Shown here one piece after another: positions 2,978 to 13,781 of a stretch of 64,000 nt of DNA. The notes under the pieces were generated by a model. That model made no database searches. It was given only the letters and a program-made list of their open reading frames with translations, and was not told the origin of the DNA. The stretch's first letter is position 1, and each line of letters opens with the position of its first letter. Both the position numbers and the translations under genes were made by a program. Source of the DNA: Paraconexibacter algicola (GTDB lineage: Bacteria > Actinomycetota > Thermoleophilia > Solirubrobacterales > Solirubrobacteraceae); NCBI RefSeq assembly GCF_003044185.1, contig NZ_PYYB01000005.1:62001-126000 (forward strand), read 5' to 3'.

Positions 2978-3295
2978 GTCGTTCTCGGTCCCGCTCCACC
3001 TCCGGTCCTGCGGTTCGTGCGACGGGCGTCGCCCCTCCTCCGATCGGTCACCGGGGGTCGTCCGATCGGCCACGCGCCGTTCGCCCGGCGGACCGTGCGC
3101 CCGCGTGATCCCGCGCCGGCCGCGGGCGGTCGATGCTGCGCGTACCGTCGCCGGAGTCACGCCCGGCGACGCTCGTCCCAAGACGGCCGACAGGCCACAG
3201 CAAAGGCAGGAGCGATGTCGCAGATGTCCGGATCCGGGTTCCCGCCCGCCCGCCGCGGACTCCAGTTCGGGAGCCGTCGTGCCGATGGGGGAGGC
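2978..3295 (+). other. Intergenic region upstream of the DUF11 surface protein
   Basis: No gene or convincing promoter is seen. Two in-frame upstream ATGs (3215 and 3224) would lengthen the next protein by 27 or 24 residues; AGGAG at 3208-3212 is 11 nt before the ATG at 3224. GACGGC (3182-3187) and GCCGTC (3273-3278) could pair to close a structured leader, but a 6-bp match is weak evidence at this GC content. Confidence 0.4.
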
Positions 3296-6200
3296 ATGGT
3301 TCCCCACCTCCCGCTCCGCGCTGCCCTGCGCGCGACGGTGCTGCTCGTCGCCGTCCTGCTCACCTGCACGTCCGTCGCCTCGGCCGACCGCGGCTTCTCC
3401 GCGCGGTTCTCGACGAACGACACCGGCGACATCGCCGGCATCGCCAACACGCTGATGACGTGTCCCGCGGGCTCGAACGCCAGCGGCACGACGTGCGCGA
3501 CGACCCAGAACGTCGGGCCGACGAGCACGGCGAACGTCTCGTACAACAACAACTACGACATGACGTACGTCGACGTCGACAGCGACCCGACGACGTTCAA
3601 CTCCTCCACGGCGAACCAGAGCCTCCCGGCCGGCGCCGAGGTCCTCTTCGCCGGGCTCTACTGGGGCGGCGACTACAGCACGGGGACGGCGGCGGCGCCC
3701 AACGCCAACGCCCGCAACACGGTGCGCCTGCGCCTGCCCGGGGCCACGGGGTACCAGACGCTGACCGCCGACACCGTCGACGACTCGACGCTGAACATCG
3801 GGCGCTACCAGGCGTTCAAGGACGTCACCGCGCTCGTCCGCCCGCTGCCCAACGCGGGCAACGGCACGTACGGCGTCGCGAACGTGCAGGCGGGCCGCGG
3901 CGGCGACCGCTACGCCGGCTGGACGCTGATCGTCGCCTACCGCGACACCACCGCCCCGGCGCGCAACCTCACGGTCTTCGACGGCCTGCGGACGATCCGC
4001 ACGACCGACCCGCCCACCGACATCCCGGTGTCCGGCTTCCTCACGCCGCCCAGCGGCCAGGTCAAGACCGAGATCGGCTTCGTCACCTGGGAGGGCGACC
4101 ATGGCCTCGTCGGCGACTCCGCGTCGCTGAACGGCAACGTGCTGAGCGACGCGCAGCACCCGGCCACGAACTTCTTCAACTCCCGGATCAGCCGCGACGG
4201 CGCGCTGTTCACCGACCGCAACCCGTCGTACGCCAACACGCTGGGCATGGACGCCTCGTTCACGCCCGCCAACGGCTTCATCGGCAACAGCGCGACGAGC
4301 GCCACGATCCGCGTCACGACCTCCGGCGACCAGTACCTGCCGGGCGTCATCACCTTCGCCACCGAGATCTACGCGCCGAAGATCGAGCAGACGAAGACCG
4401 TCCGCGACGTCAACGGCGGCCAGGTCGAGCAGGGCGACGTGCTCGAGTACACGGTCTCCGGCACGAACACCGGCCAGGACGGCACGGCGAACTTCGTGCT
4501 GCGCGACCCGATCCCCGCGAACACGACCTACGTGCCCGGCTCGATCGTCCTCGGCGGCACGTCGAGCACCGCGGGCGCCGCGACCGACGCCACCGGCGAC
4601 GACCGCGGCGAGTACGACGCGGCGAACGCCCGCGTCGTGGCCCGCCTGGGTGCGGGCGCGAACGCCACGCAGGGCGGCAACGTCGCGCCCGGACGCACCT
4701 ACTCGCTGACCTTCCGGGTCCGCGTCAACGGCCCCGCGCTGCAGGACGACCCGGTCCCCGCGGGCACGCGGATCGACAACACGGCGACCGCGAGCTTCTT
4801 CTCCCAGACCACCAACACGCCGCTCGGCGCGACCTCCTCGGTCCGCAGCACCGTCACCGCGCCCGACCTGCGCATCGCCAAGACGCGCACCGGCGGCCCG
4901 CTGGTCGGCGGCGCCGCCAACACGTACCGGCTCGCCGTCGACAACGTCGGCGACGCCCGCACGCAGGGCACCGTGACGGTCAGCGACACGCTGCCCGCCG
5001 GCCTCACCCCGACCGCCGCGAGCGGCACCGGCTGGGACTGCTCGATCAGCGGCCAGGTCGTCACCTGCACGCGCGCCGACGCGCTGCCCGCCGGCAGCGC
5101 CTACCCGCCGATCACGCTGTCGGTCGACGTCGACGGCGGCGTCAGCGGCGACGTCTCGAACACCGCGACGGTCTCGGGCGGCGGTGACGGGCAGCTCTCC
5201 AACAACAGCTCCACCGACACCTCGCCGTCCTCCCAGTCCGCGGACCTGACGCTCACGAAGGTCGCCGACAAGGCCTCCGTCGTGATCGGCGAGACCGTCG
5301 TGTTCACGCTCACGGCGAAGAACGAGGGCCCGTCGACCGCGACCTCGGTGACGATCACCGACGCGCTCCCGACCGGCCTGCAGTTCGTCTCCTCGACCCC
5401 GGCGTGCACGATCGACCCGGTCAGCGGCACGCTGTCCTGCCCGGTCGGCACGCTGGCCCGCGGCGCCTCGAGGACCGTCGAGATCACGGCCCGCGCGATG
5501 GCGTCCGCCGCCACCACGACGGTCCGCAACACCGCCACGGTCGCCGGCCAGCAGGCCGACCCGACCCCGGGCAACAACGCCGCCGACGCCTCGGTGGCGG
5601 TCGCGGGCGCCGACCTGCGCGTCGTCAAGACGCTCGACGGTCCCGCCGCGCCGCGCACCGGTGACCGCGTCACCTACACGGTGAAGGTCGAGAACCGCGG
5701 TGCCTCGCGCGCCACCGGCGTCGTGCTGCGCGACGCGCTGCCCGACGGCCTGTCTGCCGTCACCACCGACGGCGGCGCCGCCTGCACCGTCGACGGCACG
5801 CAGCTGACCTGCGCGGTCGGCGCGCTGGCCGCCGGTGACACGTACACCGTGAAGGTCAGCGGCACCGTGAAGGCCGGGCAGACCACGCTGACCAACACGG
5901 CGTCCGCGTCGGGCAACGAGGCCGACCCGGACACGTCGAACAACACCGACCAGGTCGTCACCCCGGTCGCGGCCGCGGCCGACCTCAAGGTCGTCAAGCG
6001 TGCCGATCCCGCCCAGGTGTCCCCGGGCGACCAGCTGGACTACTTCTTCGTCACGACGAACGACGGGCCCGACACGGCGACCTCCGTCACCGTCACCGAC
6101 GTCCTGCCGGCCGGCGTCACGTACGTCTCCGGCGCCCCGGGCTGCAACGAGTCCGCGGGCACCGTCACCTGCAGCTACGCGCAGCCGATCCTCCCGGGCA

Positions 6201-7993
6201 CGTCCCGCCAGACCGGCTTCACCGTGCGGGTCGCGGCGACGGCGAGCGGCACCATCCGCAACACGGCGACGGTCGCGAGCCCGGTGTTCGACCCGGACAC
6301 CACGAACAACACCGACACCATCGCCACGACGGTCCTGGACGTCGCGGACGTCGCGATCACCAAGACCGCCGACCGCACCACCGCGACCGCGGGTGACACC
6401 GTCACCTACACGCTGAAGGCGACCAACGCCGGGCCGGCGACGGCGCGCGACGTCGTCATCACCGACACGCTGCCGCCCGGGGTGCACTACGCCTCGGCGG
6501 ATGCGCCCTGCACGATCGGGCCCGGCGGCGCCGCGGGCATCGTCCGCTGCGAGGTCGGCTCGATCCCGGCGGGCGGCTCGGTCACCAAGGAGCTGCGCGT
6601 CACCGTCGACCCGATCACGGTCGCCAACCCGGGCGCGAGCCACCAGCTCGACGTGCAGAAGGTCGAGGCCCAGCTGGACCTCGAGCCCGGCCAGACCCGC
6701 ACGGTCGCGGTCAGCTGCCCGTCCGGCTACCTCGCCACCGACGGCTCGACGCGCGTCGACGCGGTCGACCAGGGCACGGGCACGCTCGCGTCCCCCAAGG
6801 TCCTCGTCAACCGGGCGGTCGGCCGCGGCGGCTGGGAGGGCACGGTGCGCAACGACGCCACGGGCCGCGCCCAGGCGAAGGTGTTCGCGGTCTGCGTCAG
6901 CGAGCGGACCTCGCAGGAGCTCGGCCACGCCCACGACCTCGTGGTCAGCGACCCGGTCACGAACACCCGCACGCTGCTGGCGGGCCGCAACACCGTGACC
7001 CTGTCGTGCGGTCCGGGGCAGACCCCGATCCAGCCCGGCATCGCCCTGCAGGGCGACGCCACGATCCTGACCTCGTTCCCGCAGGGCGACAGCGCCTGGA
7101 CGTTCGCGCTGGACAGCCCCGAGGGCACGCAGGCGACGTTCTCGATCCGCTGCCTGGACCGCACGCTCGGCGTGACCGACGGGCACACGCACCCGCTGAA
7201 CCTGCAGCTGCTGCGCAAGGACGTCGTGGTCGCTGCTGGCCAGACCGTCGAGGTGCAGCTCGACTGCGCCGACGACGCGAAGGGCGTCGTCGGGGGCTAC
7301 GACGTCGACCCGGGCCTCGTCCCGCTCGGCAACGACCCGCGGCCGAAGACCCGTGCGTTCCGGTTCTTCAACCCGACCGGCCAGGACCTCAACGCCTCCG
7401 TGACGCTGCTGTGCCTGTCGACCCGCACGGGCGGTGAGCAGGCCTTCACGACGATCGAGAACACCGCCCAGGTGGCGACGGCGACCCCGGAGACCGACCT
7501 CGCCGACAACCAGGGCTCGGCCCGCATCACCGCCACCGGCGGCTCGGCGGCCACCCCGGCCCCGGCCCCCGCCGCCGCGACGCCGGACGCTCCGGCCACC
7601 GGCGCCGGGACCCCGACGGCCCCGTCCGCCCCGGCGACGACCCCGGCGGCGCCGTCGGGGCCGGCCGCCCCGGCGACGGGCCGCGCGGCCCTGGCCCGCA
7701 GCACGGTCACGGTCCGGGGCGCCACCGCGGTGACCGCGGTGCGCTGCGGCGGCGGCGCGACGTGCCGCGGCACGGTCCGGCTGCTGGCCGCGGCCACGCA
7801 GCGCCTCGGCGGTCGCGTGGTCCGCAAGGGCACCGTGCTCGCCACCGGTCGCTACGTCGTCCGCTCCGGGCGCACCGCGAAGGTGACGCTCCGCGCCACG
7901 TCGGCCGGGAAGCGCGCGCTGCGCTCGAAGGCGCTGCGCCGCGGGCAGCTGCGGCTCGGTACCGCGACACGGATCGTGAAACTGGCGCGCTAG
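3296..7993 (+). CDS. Large secreted surface protein with DUF11 repeats
   Basis: Probable cell-surface or secreted adhesin-like protein, about 1565 aa. The start at 3296 gives a clean signal peptide (basic MVPHLPLRAALRA, hydrophobic TVLLVAVLLTC, cleavage near SVASA). An upstream ATG at 3224 is possible. Next comes an N-terminal beta-rich domain of about 330 residues (LFAGLYWGGDYSTG), then six DUF11 repeats whose units begin near 4378, 4861, 5237, 5608, 5975 and 6340 (typical ADLTLTKVADKA, NTATV, DP-NN motifs). The sixth repeat is interrupted by three related units of about 85-98 residues (6640-7440), each with paired cysteines. The closing strand (ENTAQVATATPETDLADNQG) resumes afterwards. A Pro/Ala/Thr linker and a basic C-terminal domain of about 100 residues with two Cys follow. 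No LPXTG or C-terminal membrane anchor is visible. Confidence 0.85.
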   Translation: MVPHLPLRAALRATVLLVAVLLTCTSVASADRGFSARFSTNDTGDIAGIANTLMTCPAGSNASGTTCATTQNVGPTSTANVSYNNNYDMTYVDVDSDPTTFNSSTANQSLPAGAEVLFAGLYWGGDYSTGTAAAPNANARNTVRLRLPGATGYQTLTADTVDDSTLNIGRYQAFKDVTALVRPLPNAGNGTYGVANVQAGRGGDRYAGWTLIVAYRDTTAPARNLTVFDGLRTIRTTDPPTDIPVSGFLTPPSGQVKTEIGFVTWEGDHGLVGDSASLNGNVLSDAQHPATNFFNSRISRDGALFTDRNPSYANTLGMDASFTPANGFIGNSATSATIRVTTSGDQYLPGVITFATEIYAPKIEQTKTVRDVNGGQVEQGDVLEYTVSGTNTGQDGTANFVLRDPIPANTTYVPGSIVLGGTSSTAGAATDATGDDRGEYDAANARVVARLGAGANATQGGNVAPGRTYSLTFRVRVNGPALQDDPVPAGTRIDNTATASFFSQTTNTPLGATSSVRSTVTAPDLRIAKTRTGGPLVGGAANTYRLAVDNVGDARTQGTVTVSDTLPAGLTPTAASGTGWDCSISGQVVTCTRADALPAGSAYPPITLSVDVDGGVSGDVSNTATVSGGGDGQLSNNSSTDTSPSSQSADLTLTKVADKASVVIGETVVFTLTAKNEGPSTATSVTITDALPTGLQFVSSTPACTIDPVSGTLSCPVGTLARGASRTVEITARAMASAATTTVRNTATVAGQQADPTPGNNAADASVAVAGADLRVVKTLDGPAAPRTGDRVTYTVKVENRGASRATGVVLRDALPDGLSAVTTDGGAACTVDGTQLTCAVGALAAGDTYTVKVSGTVKAGQTTLTNTASASGNEADPDTSNNTDQVVTPVAAAADLKVVKRADPAQVSPGDQLDYFFVTTNDGPDTATSVTVTDVLPAGVTYVSGAPGCNESAGTVTCSYAQPILPGTSRQTGFTVRVAATASGTIRNTATVASPVFDPDTTNNTDTIATTVLDVADVAITKTADRTTATAGDTVTYTLKATNAGPATARDVVITDTLPPGVHYASADAPCTIGPGGAAGIVRCEVGSIPAGGSVTKELRVTVDPITVANPGASHQLDVQKVEAQLDLEPGQTRTVAVSCPSGYLATDGSTRVDAVDQGTGTLASPKVLVNRAVGRGGWEGTVRNDATGRAQAKVFAVCVSERTSQELGHAHDLVVSDPVTNTRTLLAGRNTVTLSCGPGQTPIQPGIALQGDATILTSFPQGDSAWTFALDSPEGTQATFSIRCLDRTLGVTDGHTHPLNLQLLRKDVVVAAGQTVEVQLDCADDAKGVVGGYDVDPGLVPLGNDPRPKTRAFRFFNPTGQDLNASVTLLCLSTRTGGEQAFTTIENTAQVATATPETDLADNQGSARITATGGSAATPAPAPAAATPDAPATGAGTPTAPSAPATTPAAPSGPAAPATGRAALARSTVTVRGATAVTAVRCGGGATCRGTVRLLAAATQRLGGRVVRKGTVLATGRYVVRSGRTAKVTLRATSAGKRALRSKALRRGQLRLGTATRIVKLAR

Positions 7994-8021
7994 CTCGTCG
8001 GTCCGGTCCCGGGCGCTGTAG

Positions 8022-8027
8022 TAGCGT
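8022..8027 (+). promoter_or_regulatory. Candidate -10 box, start-proximal (DUF4178 cluster)
   Basis: TAGCGT ends 9 nt before the ATG at 8037. If used, the transcript would begin at or next to the start codon. No recognisable -35 or Shine-Dalgarno sequence is present. Confidence 0.35.
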
Positions 8028-8036
8028 CCGGGGCCG

Positions 8037-8639
8037 ATGACCGTCGTCCTCGTCCTCGTCTTCCTCGTCCTGATCGGGGCCGGCGTCGCCGTCCTGGTCC
8101 GTGGCCGCAGCACCGCCGCCGTGACCGCCGGCGACGCCCCCGGGCGGGCGATCGGCACCGCCGAGCCCGCCGCCGCCCGCCGCTCCTCGGTCCGCGGCCT
8201 GCGGATCGGCGACGTCGTCGCCCACGACGGGCACGACGCGATCGTGGAGCGCAGCTACCGCTTCCGCGAGGGCGGCTCGCGCTGGGAGGAGCACCTGCTC
8301 GTCGACGGCGACTACACCCGCTGGCTGTCCGTCGAGGACGACGAGGGCCTGGAGTGCGTGCTGTGGGAGCGCCGCCCCGACCCGACGCTCGAGCCGGGCG
8401 AGCGCACGCTCGAGGTCGACGGCGTCGCCTACCGCTTCGACGAGCGCGGCACCGCCGACTACACGCTCGAGGAGCAGGACGGGCCGGGCGGCTCCGGTCG
8501 CGCCGAGTACGCCGACTACGTCGCCGGGGAGCAGCGCCTGAGCTTCGAGCGCTACGACGGCTCCGGGGCCTGGGAGATCAACGTCGGCGCGGTCGTGTCC
8601 GAGCACGCCTTCGACGTCTACCCGGGGTCGGGGTCGTGA
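8037..8639 (+). CDS. DUF4178 domain-containing membrane-anchored protein
   Basis: First gene of a seven-gene overlapping cluster ending in a spermidine-synthase-like protein. 200 aa. One N-terminal membrane segment (residues 2-21, VVLVLVFLVLIGAGVAVLV) is followed by a short linker and a DUF4178-like domain (LRIGDVVAHDGHDAIVERSY, then EEHLLVDGDYTRWLSVEDDEG). The function of DUF4178 is not established. Related families occur next to DUF350 and polyamine-synthase genes elsewhere. Overlaps the next gene by 4 bp (GTGA), so translation is probably coupled. Confidence 0.8.
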   Translation: MTVVLVLVFLVLIGAGVAVLVRGRSTAAVTAGDAPGRAIGTAEPAAARRSSVRGLRIGDVVAHDGHDAIVERSYRFREGGSRWEEHLLVDGDYTRWLSVEDDEGLECVLWERRPDPTLEPGERTLEVDGVAYRFDERGTADYTLEEQDGPGGSGRAEYADYVAGEQRLSFERYDGSGAWEINVGAVVSEHAFDVYPGSGS

Positions 8640-8914
8640 GCGGCGACCCGCTGGGCGAGGCGCAGGCCACCGAGGACGCGCTTCGTGCGCAGCTGGGCGA
8701 CCTGATCGGCGCGAAGGCCCGCGCCGCGCACGAGGCCGCGCGGCTGGACGTCCGCGCGGGTCTGCCGGGCGCCGACCCGGAGCTCGCCGCCCTCGCCGAC
8801 CGCCACCGGGCGCAGGCCGCCCGGCTGGCGGCCGAGGTGGAGGAGGTCCGCTCGTCCCTGCGGGCCCAGGAGGTCCGCACCGAGTCCCTGCGCGCGGACG
8901 CCGCCGGGGCCTGA
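8636..8914 (+). CDS. Small coiled-coil protein of unknown function
   Basis: 92 aa, GTG start overlapping the preceding stop. It is almost entirely charged helix (GEAQATEDALRAQLGDLIG and HRAQAARLAAEVEEVRSSLR), which predicts a coiled coil with no signal or membrane segment. I do not recognise a family. The frame is kept open between two tightly packed neighbours and uses the same codon bias, so it is very likely real and part of the DUF350 cluster. Confidence 0.7.
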   Translation: MSGDPLGEAQATEDALRAQLGDLIGAKARAAHEAARLDVRAGLPGADPELAALADRHRAQAARLAAEVEEVRSSLRAQEVRTESLRADAAGA

Positions 8915-8917
8915 CCG

Positions 8918-9415
8918 GTGAAGCTCGCGCTAGCCACCCCGTACGCCGACGTGCGCGCCGCCGACCTCGTGCTGCGGCTCGATCGGGCCCCGGGCCCGAC
9001 GCTCGGCACCCGCCGCGTGCGCGTCGGCGGCCTCGAGGTCGAGCTCGGGCTGCTCGGGCACTCCCACCAGGTCCACGTCCGCGGGGACGGCGTCGCGCTG
9101 TGCGAGGTGCTCGCCTGCGACCCGGGCCGTCCGGGCGACCTGCCCGCGGTGCGCGAGCACGACCGCATCACCCACACCTACCGCTTCACCGCCGAGGTCC
9201 TGCCGCTCGGTGCCGCCGACGGCCTCGACCTCGCCGACGCGGTCGCCGTCGACCCGGACGGCCTCGTCGGGCTGTTCCCGGGGCACGTCGAGGCGTTCAC
9301 CGCGCTGCGCGCCCGCGCGGTCGGTCGGGAGGCGGTCAGCTGGGAGACCTGGCACGCCTACCCGCAGACCGACGAGCTCGTCCACACCACCACGACCGTG
9401 ACGGTGCGCCGGTGA
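8918..9415 (+). CDS. DUF2617 family protein
   Basis: 165 aa, GTG start 3 nt after the previous stop. The sequence (MKLALATPYADVRAADLVL, LEVELGLLGHSHQV, ITHTYRFTAEV, ETWHAYPQTDELVHT) resembles the DUF2617 family, a soluble protein of unknown function. No signal peptide. Its 3' end overlaps the DUF4247-type gene by 4 bp. Its place between DUF4178, DUF4247 and DUF350 genes matches a neighbourhood I know from other actinobacteria. Assignment is from memory of the family, not a search. Confidence 0.75.
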   Translation: MKLALATPYADVRAADLVLRLDRAPGPTLGTRRVRVGGLEVELGLLGHSHQVHVRGDGVALCEVLACDPGRPGDLPAVREHDRITHTYRFTAEVLPLGAADGLDLADAVAVDPDGLVGLFPGHVEAFTALRARAVGREAVSWETWHAYPQTDELVHTTTTVTVRR

Positions 9416-9828
9416 ACCCCCGTCGCGGTCTCGCGCTCGGCCTCATCGCGGTCGGGGTCCTCGGCATCGTCCTGACGCTCGCGACGACCGGCTCGGTGCG
9501 CGGCTACGTCAAGGACCACTACACCCGCGCGGGCAGCCAGGGCGGGGCGGAGGTCTACCGGTCGAGCCAGCCGCCCGCGAAGGTCGCCGCCGACATCCAG
9601 CGCGAGCACGAGCCGGCGGACCGTCGCGTCACGCCCGAGGGCATCTTCCTGCGCTACCGCGGCGACTACGTGGGCGTCCAGCCCGACGGGCGCGGCTCGC
9701 GCATCACGCTCGCCGACGAGAACCGCGGGTACGGCCTCTTCTACCCGTACGTCGGCGGCTACTGGGGCACCTACTCGGGGCCCGCCGAGAGCTTCCGCGG
9801 CGGCGGTCCGGGGGGCGGCGGCAAGTGA
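9412..9828 (+). CDS. DUF4247-like membrane-anchored protein
   Basis: 138 aa, GTG start overlapping the previous gene (GTGA). One N-terminal membrane segment (LALGLIAVGVLGIVLTLA) is followed by an extracytoplasmic domain with EGIFLRYRGDYVGVQPDGRG and a Tyr/Gly-rich end (GYGLFYPYVGGYWGTYSGP, then a Gly-rich tail). This fits DUF4247, which has no known activity. It overlaps the next gene by 4 bp. Confidence 0.7.
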   Translation: MNPRRGLALGLIAVGVLGIVLTLATTGSVRGYVKDHYTRAGSQGGAEVYRSSQPPAKVAADIQREHEPADRRVTPEGIFLRYRGDYVGVQPDGRGSRITLADENRGYGLFYPYVGGYWGTYSGPAESFRGGGPGGGGK

Positions 9829-10577
9829 GGGCGCGCCTCGTCGTGGTGCTCGCGGCGCTGCTGGCGTCGGCGGTCCTCGCCACCCCGGCGAGCGCGGGCC
9901 CGCTGCTGTCCGACGGCGACGCCGCCGAGCTCGCGCAGTCGCTGGCGGAGGCGACCGCCGAGCAGGACGTCTGCTACGGCTGGCGGGTCGACGTCAGCGA
10001 CTCGTCGGGCGGGCCGAGCGGCATCGACGTCGGCTCGGGCGCGGGGCCCGGCATCGGCGTGACCGACGCCGAGAACGCCGGCTGCACCCGCGTCGTCGAG
10101 CTCTTCGGCAGCGTCCGCTTCACCTGCGAGTCCTGCGAGGCCGACGACAGCTCCAACGCCACGGTCGTCTCCACGCTCCCGGACGGTCCGCGGATCGGGG
10201 ACCTGGAGGCGCTCGGCCTGGACGGCGGCGACCTCAAGGGGGACGACGGGGATGTCGTGCTCGCCAACATGGTCGGGGCGCTGCCGATCGTCGCCGCCTC
10301 CAAGGGCGCCGCGCCCGAGCTCGAGGCCGACGCGCTGACGGGCCCGACCGGCGCTGCCGCACGCGACCGGGCGACCGGCTCCCCGCGCGTGCCCGACTGG
10401 CTGCGCGAGTCGTGGCTGGCCCTGGCCGTCTGCCTGCTGGCGATCCTCGGCGGCGTCTGGTGGTTCGTCTCGGTCGTCCTGAGCGACCGCTCGGCCGCCG
10501 GGCGCGCCGCCCGCCTCGCGGCCCGCCGTCGCCGTCGCGCCGCCGAGACCGACCCACCCGCACCGAAGGGCACCTGA
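9825..10577 (+). CDS. Secreted, C-terminally membrane-anchored protein of unknown function
   Basis: 250 aa, GTG start in a GTGA overlap. Signal peptide at residues 1-24 (VVVLAALLASAVLATPASA). The extracellular part carries Cys at CYGW, GCTR and CESCEAD, suggesting disulfides or metal binding. One membrane segment near residues 200-222 (WLALAVCLLAILGGVWWFV) is followed by an Arg-rich cytoplasmic tail. The topology is an extracellular domain, one span and a positive tail (TPM-like layout), but I do not recognise a family with confidence. It sits just before the DUF350 gene. Confidence 0.65.
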   Translation: MRARLVVVLAALLASAVLATPASAGPLLSDGDAAELAQSLAEATAEQDVCYGWRVDVSDSSGGPSGIDVGSGAGPGIGVTDAENAGCTRVVELFGSVRFTCESCEADDSSNATVVSTLPDGPRIGDLEALGLDGGDLKGDDGDVVLANMVGALPIVAASKGAAPELEADALTGPTGAAARDRATGSPRVPDWLRESWLALAVCLLAILGGVWWFVSVVLSDRSAAGRAARLAARRRRRAAETDPPAPKGT

Positions 10578-10578
10578 C

Positions 10579-11001
10579 ATGGACGACTTCTTCACCGAGA
10601 TCGCGAGCGCCCTCCTCTACGGGGCCGTCGGCGTCGCGCTGCTCGCCGCCGGCTTCCTGATCCTCGATCTGCTGATCCCCGGCAAGCTCGGCGAGCTGAT
10701 CATCGAGGAGCGCAACCGCTCCGCCGGGATCATCACCGCCGCCGGCATGGTCGCGGTCGGCGCCGTCGTCACCACGGCGATCGCCTCGGCCGACGGGCCG
10801 CTCGGGGAGGGCCTCGCCGAGACGGCGGGCTACGGCGGCGTCGGGGTGCTGATGCTCGGCGTGGCGTTCGTCGTCGTGGACGTCCTCACGCCCGGCAAGC
10901 TCAGCGACGTCTGTCACCAGGAGGGCGAGCAGCCCGTGGCGTACGTCATCGCGGCGGCGCTGCTGGCGGCCGGCGCGATCGTCGCGGCCGCGATCAGCTG
11001 A
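10579..11001 (+). CDS. DUF350 family integral membrane protein
   Basis: 140 aa with four predicted membrane helices in two related halves. Each half has a helix followed by a D-x-L-x-PGKL motif (LILDLLIPGKLGELI and VVDVLTPGKLSDVC). This duplicated pattern is typical of the DUF350 (YjfL-like) family, whose biochemical role is unknown but which is often encoded next to aminopropyltransferase or glutathionylspermidine-synthetase-like genes. Starts 1 nt after the preceding stop; the aminopropyltransferase-like gene follows after 11 bp. Confidence 0.85.
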   Translation: MDDFFTEIASALLYGAVGVALLAAGFLILDLLIPGKLGELIIEERNRSAGIITAAGMVAVGAVVTTAIASADGPLGEGLAETAGYGGVGVLMLGVAFVVVDVLTPGKLSDVCHQEGEQPVAYVIAAALLAAGAIVAAAIS

Positions 11002-11012
11002 CGGTCGCCGTC

Positions 11013-12548
11013 GTGGTCGCGCTCGCGCAGCGGCCCGCCCGGGCCGTCCTGCTGGGAACCGTGCTGCTCGTCGCGGTCTGCGGGTTCATCTACGAGCTCG
11101 TGATCGTCGCGATGGGCACGTACCTGCTCGGCAACTCGATCGAGCAGGTCTCGCTCGTGCTCGCCGCGTTCGTCTCCAGCATGGGCGCGGGATCGCTGCT
11201 GTCGCGGCCGCTGATGGGTCGCCCGGTCGTCTCGTTCGCCCTCGTCGAGTGCCTCGTGGCGCTGATCGGCGGCCTCAGCGCGATCGGCCTGTACGCCGCG
11301 TTCGCGTACCTCGACCTCTACCAGCCGGTGATGCTGCTGTTCGCCGCGTCGATCGGCCTGCTGGTGGGCTGCGAGATCCCGCTGCTCGTCGTCCTGCTGC
11401 AGCGCGTGCGCCGCCAGGAGACCGGCACCTCGGTGGCCGAGCTGCTCGCCGCCGACTACCTCGGCGCGGTCGTCGGCGGCGTCTCGTTCCCGCTGCTGCT
11501 GCTCCCGTTCCTCGGGCAGATCGACACCGCGCTGGCGGTCGGCGCGCTCAACCTCGGGGCCGGCGTCGTCGTCGTGTGGCTGCTCGGCGGCGACCTGTCG
11601 GCGCGCACGCGACGCTGGCTGGGCGTCGCGTTCGCCGCGGTCCTCGCGGTCCTCGGGGCGACCGCGGCGCTCGCCGACCGCTTCGAGGTCGACGCGCGCC
11701 AGGCGCTCTACGACGACCCGATCGTGCTCAGCGAGCGCACCCGCTACCAGGAGATCGTGCTCACGCGGTCGCTGGCCGGTGGCGACCTGCGGCTGTTCCT
11801 CAACGGCGACCTGCAGTTCTCCTCCAAGGACGAGTACCGCTACCACGAGGCGCTCGTGCACCCCGCCATGGCGGGGTCGCGCTCCCGCGTGCTGGTGCTC
11901 GGGGGCGGCGACGGCCTGGCGATGCGCGAGGTGCTCCGCTACCCGGACGTCCGCGAGGCCGTCCAGGTCGAGCTCGACCCGCGGATGCTGCGCCTGGCCC
12001 GCGAGGACGAGCGCCTGCGCGCGCTCAACGGCGACAGCCTGCGCGACCGGCGCGTGCGGACGGTCACCCGTGACGCGTTCGCCTGGCTGCGCACCGCGCC
12101 CGCGCACGCGTTCGACGTGGTCATCGCCGACTTCCCGGACCCCGACGACGCCGCGCTCGCCAAGCTCTACTCGGTGGAGCTCTACGGGCTGGTGCGCCGC
12201 GCGCTCGCGCCGGGCGGTCGCCTCGTGGTGCAGAGCGGCAGCCCGTACTTCGCGCAGAAGGCGTACTGGTCGATCGCCGCGAGCCTCGAGGGCGCGGGCC
12301 TGGCGGTCACGAGCTACCACGTCGACGTGCCGAGCTTCGGCGACTGGGGCTTCCACCTGGCCGGGACCGCCCGCCCGGCGCTGACGCTGGATCCGCCGCC
12401 GCGACCGCTGCGGTTCCTCGACGGCCCGACGCTGCGGGCCGCCGCCGTGTTCGGGCGCGACCGCCGCCGCCCGCCGGGCGACCTGCGCTCGACGCTCGAC
12501 AAGCCGCGGATCGTGGCGTACGCCCGCGAGGGCTACCGCGACTACTGA
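11013..12548 (+). CDS. Membrane-fused spermidine synthase-like aminopropyltransferase
   Basis: 511 aa, GTG start. The N-terminal part (residues about 8-220) holds about seven hydrophobic helices (VLLGTVLLVAVCGFIYELVI and others). It is followed by a Rossmann spermidine-synthase domain with the entry motif TRYQEIVLTR, a nucleotide-binding loop GGGDG (297-301), the acidic VQVELDPRML, and VIADFPDPDD where catalytic Asp residues of SpeE are found. Classical SpeE transfers aminopropyl from decarboxylated SAM to putrescine. The membrane-fused class is poorly characterised and its substrate here is unknown. No speD or speA/speC gene is present in the window. Confidence 0.85.
   Translation: MVALAQRPARAVLLGTVLLVAVCGFIYELVIVAMGTYLLGNSIEQVSLVLAAFVSSMGAGSLLSRPLMGRPVVSFALVECLVALIGGLSAIGLYAAFAYLDLYQPVMLLFAASIGLLVGCEIPLLVVLLQRVRRQETGTSVAELLAADYLGAVVGGVSFPLLLLPFLGQIDTALAVGALNLGAGVVVVWLLGGDLSARTRRWLGVAFAAVLAVLGATAALADRFEVDARQALYDDPIVLSERTRYQEIVLTRSLAGGDLRLFLNGDLQFSSKDEYRYHEALVHPAMAGSRSRVLVLGGGDGLAMREVLRYPDVREAVQVELDPRMLRLAREDERLRALNGDSLRDRRVRTVTRDAFAWLRTAPAHAFDVVIADFPDPDDAALAKLYSVELYGLVRRALAPGGRLVVQSGSPYFAQKAYWSIAASLEGAGLAVTSYHVDVPSFGDWGFHLAGTARPALTLDPPPRPLRFLDGPTLRAAAVFGRDRRRPPGDLRSTLDKPRIVAYAREGYRDY

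Positions 12549-12794: not shown

Positions 12795-13781
<987 letters not shown>

Follow-up and report, generated by a model that had tools for sequence, protein, structure and literature searches.

The 64,000-nucleotide stretch of Paraconexibacter algicola DNA analysed here (contig NZ_PYYB01000005.1, positions 62,001 to 126,000; hereafter the window) carries seven same-strand genes at 8037-12548, the last of which encodes a spermidine synthase-like (SpeE) protein fused to membrane segments (mSpeE). We see an even chance that this cluster is a membrane aminopropyl-transfer system in which the DUF2617 protein would supply the donor, decarboxylated S-adenosylmethionine (dcAdoMet), in place of the S-adenosylmethionine (AdoMet) decarboxylase SpeD. 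SpeD is the only well-known source of dcAdoMet, and it was not found with PF02675 in the P. algicola genome (95.6% complete), where mSpeE is present. In genomes without an AdoMet decarboxylase by PF02675, genes of the mSpeE type carry the annotation spermidine synthase, and the source of the donor there is unexplained. That DUF2617 supplies it we infer from two observations: DUF2617 and SpeD exclude each other among genomes with mSpeE, and one takes the slot of the other in the operon. The swap singles out a small, soluble-looking protein as the candidate source of the donor.

DUF2617 and SpeD in genomes with mSpeE

Named loci were found with an alignment of nine mSpeE proteins as the query against genomes of named species (loci and genomes are cited by our L and G numbers), and 50 of the 51 named loci having DUF350 were used to compare the distribution of DUF2617 and SpeD. 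DUF2617 was present in the locus and SpeD absent in 42 of these genomes. The other eight (Nocardia, two Saccharopolyspora, two Acidobacteria, two Gemmatimonadota and Rhizobacter) have SpeD, and DUF2617 was found neither in their loci nor genome-wide. At three non-actinobacterial named loci (L105, L109 and L111), SpeD lies within the cluster stretch.

An order-level set comprised 200 genomes from the order of the Nocardia strain (Mycobacteriales-level), and 58 of them had mSpeE over the cut-off. DUF2617 alone was found in 47 of these, SpeD alone in nine, both in one and neither in one (Fisher p 9e-9, with relatedness ignored). The genome with both (G263) carries a SpeD relative without the ESHxxxH motif that was missed by the SpeD profile, and in the genome with neither (G343) the contig ends at mSpeE. 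Outside the mSpeE genomes DUF2617 occurred once in 49 cases, as a lone gene adjoining a YebC-like gene that was assigned by eye (G443). The phylum-level set of 198 genomes had mSpeE above the cut-off in 14 and DUF2617 in 13, all within those 14; 11 had DUF2617 only, one SpeD only (G050) and two both. The latter are Streptomyces-type genomes whose SpeD homologues read SASH...LLAYG as against ESH...FTCG, so that the cysteine of TCG is gone. The sets have genomes in common; by coordinates, G050 and G268, for instance, are one and the same. In the control genomes, PF01564 was found in 11, eight of which had SpeD, and two of the remaining three had DUF2617. SpeE and DUF2617 were present and SpeD was not found in the C. 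glutamicum and H. volcanii controls.

Two side observations concern odd members of both families. The SpeD homologues at L112, L113 and L122 have SASH or QSH and a tyrosine replacing the catalytic cysteine, and they are probably not AdoMet decarboxylases. In a mycobacterium-like genome (L171, 3892-4390), DUF2617 stands by itself; DUF4247, DUF350 and mSpeE were not found within the 10 kb examined, and the gene is likely a deletion relic.

The exchange was also seen in the gene order. Seven of the eight SpeD-bearing actinomycete clusters examined read DUF4178-DUF4247-(gene 5)-DUF350-mSpeE, which is the window type minus DUF2617, and the eighth is cut by the contig end. Gene 2 is missing from these seven clusters as well, as in nearly all relatives. 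Among 398 Pseudomonadota genomes DUF2617 was found in two, with both copies inside the mSpeE operon: TelA-DUF4178-x-DUF2617-x-DUF350-mSpeE at L185 and mSpeE-DUF2617 at L186. The corresponding order in Alteromonas is mSpeE-SpeD-x-TelA-DUF4178-x-DUF350. In the Pseudomonadota, then, either SpeD or DUF2617 occupies a slot in the mSpeE operon. A search of plasmid records with mSpeE gave 33 records. Seven of these stretches, proteobacterial or from Gemmatimonadota, were examined, and SpeD was present in six of them, with Burkholderia (L180) having it on the other strand; it was not found in the Tritonibacter stretch (L181). DUF2617 had no match among the plasmid records.

Independent switches were counted on a tree of 76 mSpeE proteins, which shows four changes of the DUF2617 label. 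On well-supported branches there were three independent pairs and on all branches four, and DUF2617 and SpeD were opposite in every pair. Three Streptomyces/Streptosporangium rows with an unchecked SpeD label (L067, L069 and L077) were dropped, and the outcome was unchanged. The SpeD homologues of L020 and L022, which lack the cysteine of TCG, were scored either absent or present; when present, there are five SpeD changes. The Pseudomonadota cases and the control genomes are further cases outside this tree.

The proposed mechanism and its alternatives

The window mSpeE matched the NCBIfam family NF002956 (PRK03612) with 632.5 bits (cut-off 472, profile 17-520 of 522) and aligned with solved aminopropyltransferases (1uir, E 1.8e-29). 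The original prediction had described a membrane-fused SpeE-like protein with about seven helices and had proposed a check of its active-site residues; seven hydrophobic segments are present, and the residues are kept. The window protein (P0007) has the GGGDG aspartate, the DxxDP aspartate pair, the glutamine and YHE. Eleven residues (Q246, Q268, D273, E274, Y277, E279, D300, D322, D354, D373 and D376) were invariant in all 49 mSpeE proteins from loci with DUF2617 and DUF350, and the same eleven in all 16 sequences from SpeD-bearing genomes. Among them we take Asp300 to be at the donor site and Asp373 and Asp376 to be catalytic, as assigned from SpeE structures. The comparison supports a membrane-tethered aminopropyltransferase with an intact predicted active site.

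The histidine of YHE (His278) is a threonine in 16 of the 49 DUF2617-type proteins, mycobacteria among them (L025-L027, L078, L094, L098, L099, L103 and kin). The 35 mSpeE proteins from loci without DUF350 (L018-L024 and 28 others, Streptomyces-type) have retained the donor Asp300, but residues on the acceptor side are lost, Q268 in 35 of 35 and P440 and F442 in most; judging by these residues, they perhaps use another acceptor or have lost catalysis. A second PF01564 gene of the P. algicola genome (L002, 1231-3222) is of the MFS-SpdSyn type with a degenerate GNAAG motif and was rejected as a substitute.

In the mechanism that we propose, mSpeE would be tethered by its seven helices and would transfer the aminopropyl group from dcAdoMet to an acceptor located in the membrane or at it. 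The envelope part would be formed by DUF350, DUF4247, DUF4178 and sometimes the TPM-like protein. The donor would be supplied by SpeD in other phyla, whereas here and in most actinomycetes DUF2617 would take the place of the missing SpeD and most likely make dcAdoMet itself, as a non-homologous AdoMet decarboxylase. The original prediction had stated that the cluster has no polyamine precursor enzyme; this was not supported, since DUF2617, judged by where it occurs, is the best candidate for one. The more specific claim, that DUF2617 represents a new AdoMet decarboxylase class without homology to the known ones, dedicated to a membrane aminopropyltransferase and perhaps processing itself at the invariant Ser49, we put somewhat short of an even chance. 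This estimate jointly covers DUF2617 as the missing dcAdoMet source of actinobacteria, mycobacteria and corynebacteria included, and possibly of haloarchaea. If this is true, DUF2617 would establish a new class of enzyme and offer a way to find the target of the membrane system; if it makes no donor, a SpeE active site would run on another one. An established assay, in which spermidine is restored to an E. coli speD mutant, is described in the part of PMC10407285 concerned with it.

The DUF2617 structure predicted by AlphaFold2 is mostly beta (pLDDT 95.8, pTM 0.90). Across 14 diverse members, with identities as low as 20%, the invariant residues are L17, L29, S49, H50, E63, P76, F120, T128, H146, Y148 and P149. 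No lysine is invariant among these 14, which argues against a pyridoxal phosphate enzyme. In the model S49 closes the loop 46-49 before the strand 50-56, which is followed by the strand 59-67 carrying E63 and C67. It is speculative, and based on this model, that Ser49 together with His50, Glu63, Cys67 and His146 might form a pyruvoyl-type centre.

Several results weigh against DUF2617 as the donor source. The sign test on the independent switches gave p 0.25, the switches being too few for significance, and with L020 and L022 scored as SpeD-bearing only two of three pairs fit in some random pairings. In the two Pseudomonadota that carry DUF2617, the swap is read at the level of the operon, no genome-wide search for SpeD having been made. 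The class-2 AdoMet decarboxylase (PF01536) was found in 0 of 47 genomes but also in 0 of 14 control genomes, so its absence is not shown. Cys67 is near-invariant, with a tyrosine in L061. The DUF2617 model had no Foldseek match in the PDB at E<=0.001, and the best VIA Z was 4.3. The alignment of 49 DUF2617 members with SpeD by hhalign reached a probability of 2-6%, which was not taken as evidence of homology. No significant sequence match was found, nor a significant fold match among the rows listed. Finally, SpeD of the SpeD-bearing actinomycetes lies away from the cluster, in most of them beside a soluble SpeE, and spermidine instead of dcAdoMet could be the factor shared with DUF2617.

This last point favours a rather unlikely alternative, in which DUF2617 would provide something that canonical spermidine synthesis also gives, for example by making, loading or activating the acceptor, and would be dispensable once SpeD and a soluble SpeE are present. 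However, in G268 and G255 no soluble SpeE was found near SpeD, and the other SpeE-like matches were weak or methyltransferase-like; moreover, SpeD lies inside the mSpeE operon in Gemmatimonadota, Acidobacteria and Alteromonas, where donor supply is the simplest shared factor. That DUF2617 loss and SpeD presence coincide by phylogenetic chance, with DUF2617 as a structural or regulatory partner of the complex, is suggested by there being only three to four independent switches, but the slot swap in Pseudomonadota, the control genomes and the persistence of the DUF2617-mSpeE pair in all 35 loci that lack the envelope gene DUF350 make this unlikely.

We regard it as quite unlikely that an mSpeE without SpeD uses another donor, such as AdoMet itself, with DUF2617 as an accessory. 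Enzymes that transfer the larger 3-amino-3-carboxypropyl group from AdoMet exist, and the missing SpeD of the P. algicola genome would fit, but the donor-site residues, Asp300 of GGGDG included, are identical between the 49 DUF2617-type and the 16 SpeD-type proteins. It is very unlikely that mSpeE is an ordinary cytoplasmic spermidine synthase with incidental neighbours. The family name in NCBIfam is 'polyamine aminopropyltransferase', and Rv2601 is termed a spermidine synthase gene in a passage of PMC11841054. Against this stand the conserved fusion to seven membrane segments and the conserved operon. In addition, membrane-fused SpdSyn-like proteins reportedly failed to complement an E. coli speE mutant in work of Li et al. 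from 2019.

The likeness of DUF2617 to SpeD (PF02675) consists of a common genomic slot and partner. Both have a Ser-His pair, and the H-x-Y-P of DUF2617 resembles HTWPE, but this resemblance is weak: the best common stretch spans nine columns (HxYPQ with HTWPE) and was equalled by one of 200 column shuffles. PF02675 matched none of the 49 DUF2617 members at E<=10. The fold search rows were PsbP, Mog1 and hot-dog proteins (Z <=4.3), and SpeD was not among the rows listed. DUF2617 is described in a passage of PMC11237479 as a beta-sandwich enzyme with two conserved histidines, an aspartate and a glutamate, and it is also named in PMC9505326; the passages on DUF2617 in two papers other than PMC9505326 state no link to SpeD. 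Within the literature searched, the DUF2617-for-SpeD exchange appears to be new, whereas the operon type is already known.

Operon layout, conservation and published relatives

The seven genes (Table 1) follow each other with gaps of -4, +3, -4, -4, +1 and +11 bp, in agreement with the tight packing originally described, and a single transcript is inferred. The third-codon-position G+C is 0.97-0.99 in every gene. No promoter or terminator consensus was found when the cluster was searched for one. Five proteins matched a Pfam family above the cut-off (DUF4178, DUF2617, DUF4247, DUF350 and Spermine_synth), and genes 2 and 5 matched none. Membrane proteins had been expected, three or four of them; hydrophobic segments were found in five of the seven (one in DUF4178, one in DUF4247, two in gene 5, four in DUF350 and seven in mSpeE).

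Table 1. Genes of the cluster in the window
Feature	Position	Strand	Basis
DUF4178 protein, one N-terminal hydrophobic segment (residues 3-21)	8037..8639	+	PF13785 104 bits, cut-off 25
Gene 2, small helical coiled-coil protein, 92 aa, lineage-specific	8636..8914	+	no Pfam family; homologue only in L028
DUF2617, proposed AdoMet decarboxylase replacement	8918..9415	+	PF10936 135.6 bits
DUF4247, single N-terminal hydrophobic segment (residues 6-24)	9412..9828	+	PF14042 77.8 bits
Gene 5, membrane-anchored TPM-like domain protein, optional member, Cys C50 and C87	9825..10577	+	predicted model; no Pfam family
DUF350, four hydrophobic segments	10579..11001	+	PF03994 87.2 bits
mSpeE, seven N-terminal hydrophobic segments fused to aminopropyltransferase domain	11013..12548	+	NF002956, PF01564

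Conservation was analysed in 95 stretches, consisting of the window, 14 genome loci and the best 80 named loci, and the members were identified with iterated profiles. mSpeE was present in 94 stretches, DUF2617 in 84, DUF350 in 58, and DUF4178 and DUF4247 in 46 each. Ten stretches had gene 5, and two had gene 2. The five Pfam families occurred in identical order in 38 stretches, the window included. The order DUF4178-DUF2617-DUF4247-(gene 5)-DUF350-mSpeE was seen in Actinomadura, Gordonia, Rhodococcus, Mycobacterium, Micromonospora, Glycomyces, Nocardioides and Blastococcus, among others. In Micromonospora and its kin gene 5 is placed between DUF350 and mSpeE. The one gene 2 found outside the window belongs to a same-family genome (L028). 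In 35 stretches, almost all from Streptomyces, DUF350 is absent and DUF2617 stands directly before mSpeE; since the two adjoin in all 35, they are the minimal pair. Of the two remaining stretches, L050 is a truncated locus and L030 has no mSpeE. The DUF4178 family is also present in operons of other phyla.

Packing is common in such genomes, and the conservation is the stronger argument for an operon. The original prediction would have been refuted by neighbours not conserved together; both the family profile and the gene order show that they are. The seven-gene cluster is real and conserved, and it corresponds to a published envelope operon in its actinobacterial form. What was claimed for it at the outset stands for the conserved cluster and the intact membrane aminopropyltransferase but not for the lack of a precursor enzyme or for gene 5 as the acceptor.

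Clusters with an MFS-SpdSyn fusion, a functional SpeD and DUF350 were reportedly described by Li et al. in 2019, who are said to have thought that the membrane-fused SpdSyn-like protein aminopropylates a target other than putrescine. The window shares with these clusters the membrane-fused SpdSyn-like protein and DUF350, but its genome has DUF2617 and lacks SpeD. Ravi et al. (2024; PMC11237479) describe, in the passages on these families, operons with a spermidine synthase-like protein fused to seven transmembrane segments, DUF350 and DUF4178, and a variant with DUF4247 and DUF2617 is cited there with CCP45394/CCP45395. These are the families of the window cluster, which adds the TPM-like and the coiled-coil gene to the operons in those passages. 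DUF4247/DUF2617 is said there to replace the CesT/Tir-PspA dyad, and a replacement of SpeD is not stated in the same passages. The general idea of a membrane-located amine-transfer system, put forward in the original prediction, is supported and already in print (PMC11237479, in the part on these operons). In contrast to the PspA and CesT/Tir envelope-stress operons, neither a PspA nor a CesT/Tir gene was found by Pfam among the seven, as had been said of PspA. Gene 2 was ruled out as a hidden PspA, having no Pfam match.

Large genes without a family were seen in two of the Pseudomonadota operons. The DUF2617-bearing operon of L185 has a gene for a 576-aa protein without a Pfam match (6842-8572), and an unassigned large gene stands at a comparable place in Alteromonas (L182, 12162-13694).

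Gene 5 and flanking genes

The Cys-bearing product of gene 5 had been suggested as an acceptor of the amine transfer. Its two cysteines are invariant in 14 aligned members, but it is optional and therefore unlikely as a universal acceptor; with its presence in 10 of the 95 stretches, this role was rejected. The predicted model (pLDDT 84.1) matches TPM domains with residues 25-161, and on this model gene 5 would encode a membrane-anchored, TPM-like domain protein. The best VIA alignment was to the TPM domain 7tbr (Z 8.4, 112 residues, root-mean-square deviation 3.7). The top nine VIA rows (Z 6.3-8.4) are known or look-alike TPM proteins, among them four mycobacterial supercomplex chains and LMTP1, which we take to be TPM proteins, and the next rows have Z 5.0. 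The predicted fold is similar to that of the TPM domain proteins 7tbr, 5anp and 4oa3, but the identity in those rows is 7-13%; the Foldseek search gave E>1, and there was no Pfam match. A passage of PMC11237479 connects TPM domains with PspA systems.

Upstream of the cluster, across a gap of 43 bp, lies a gene (3017-7993) whose large, surface-type product has six or more DUF11 repeats, and the genes for the ribosomal proteins L1 (981-1706) and L10 (1804-2523) are found a few kb upstream. The next gene downstream in the direction of the cluster encodes an aldo/keto reductase (12795-13781).

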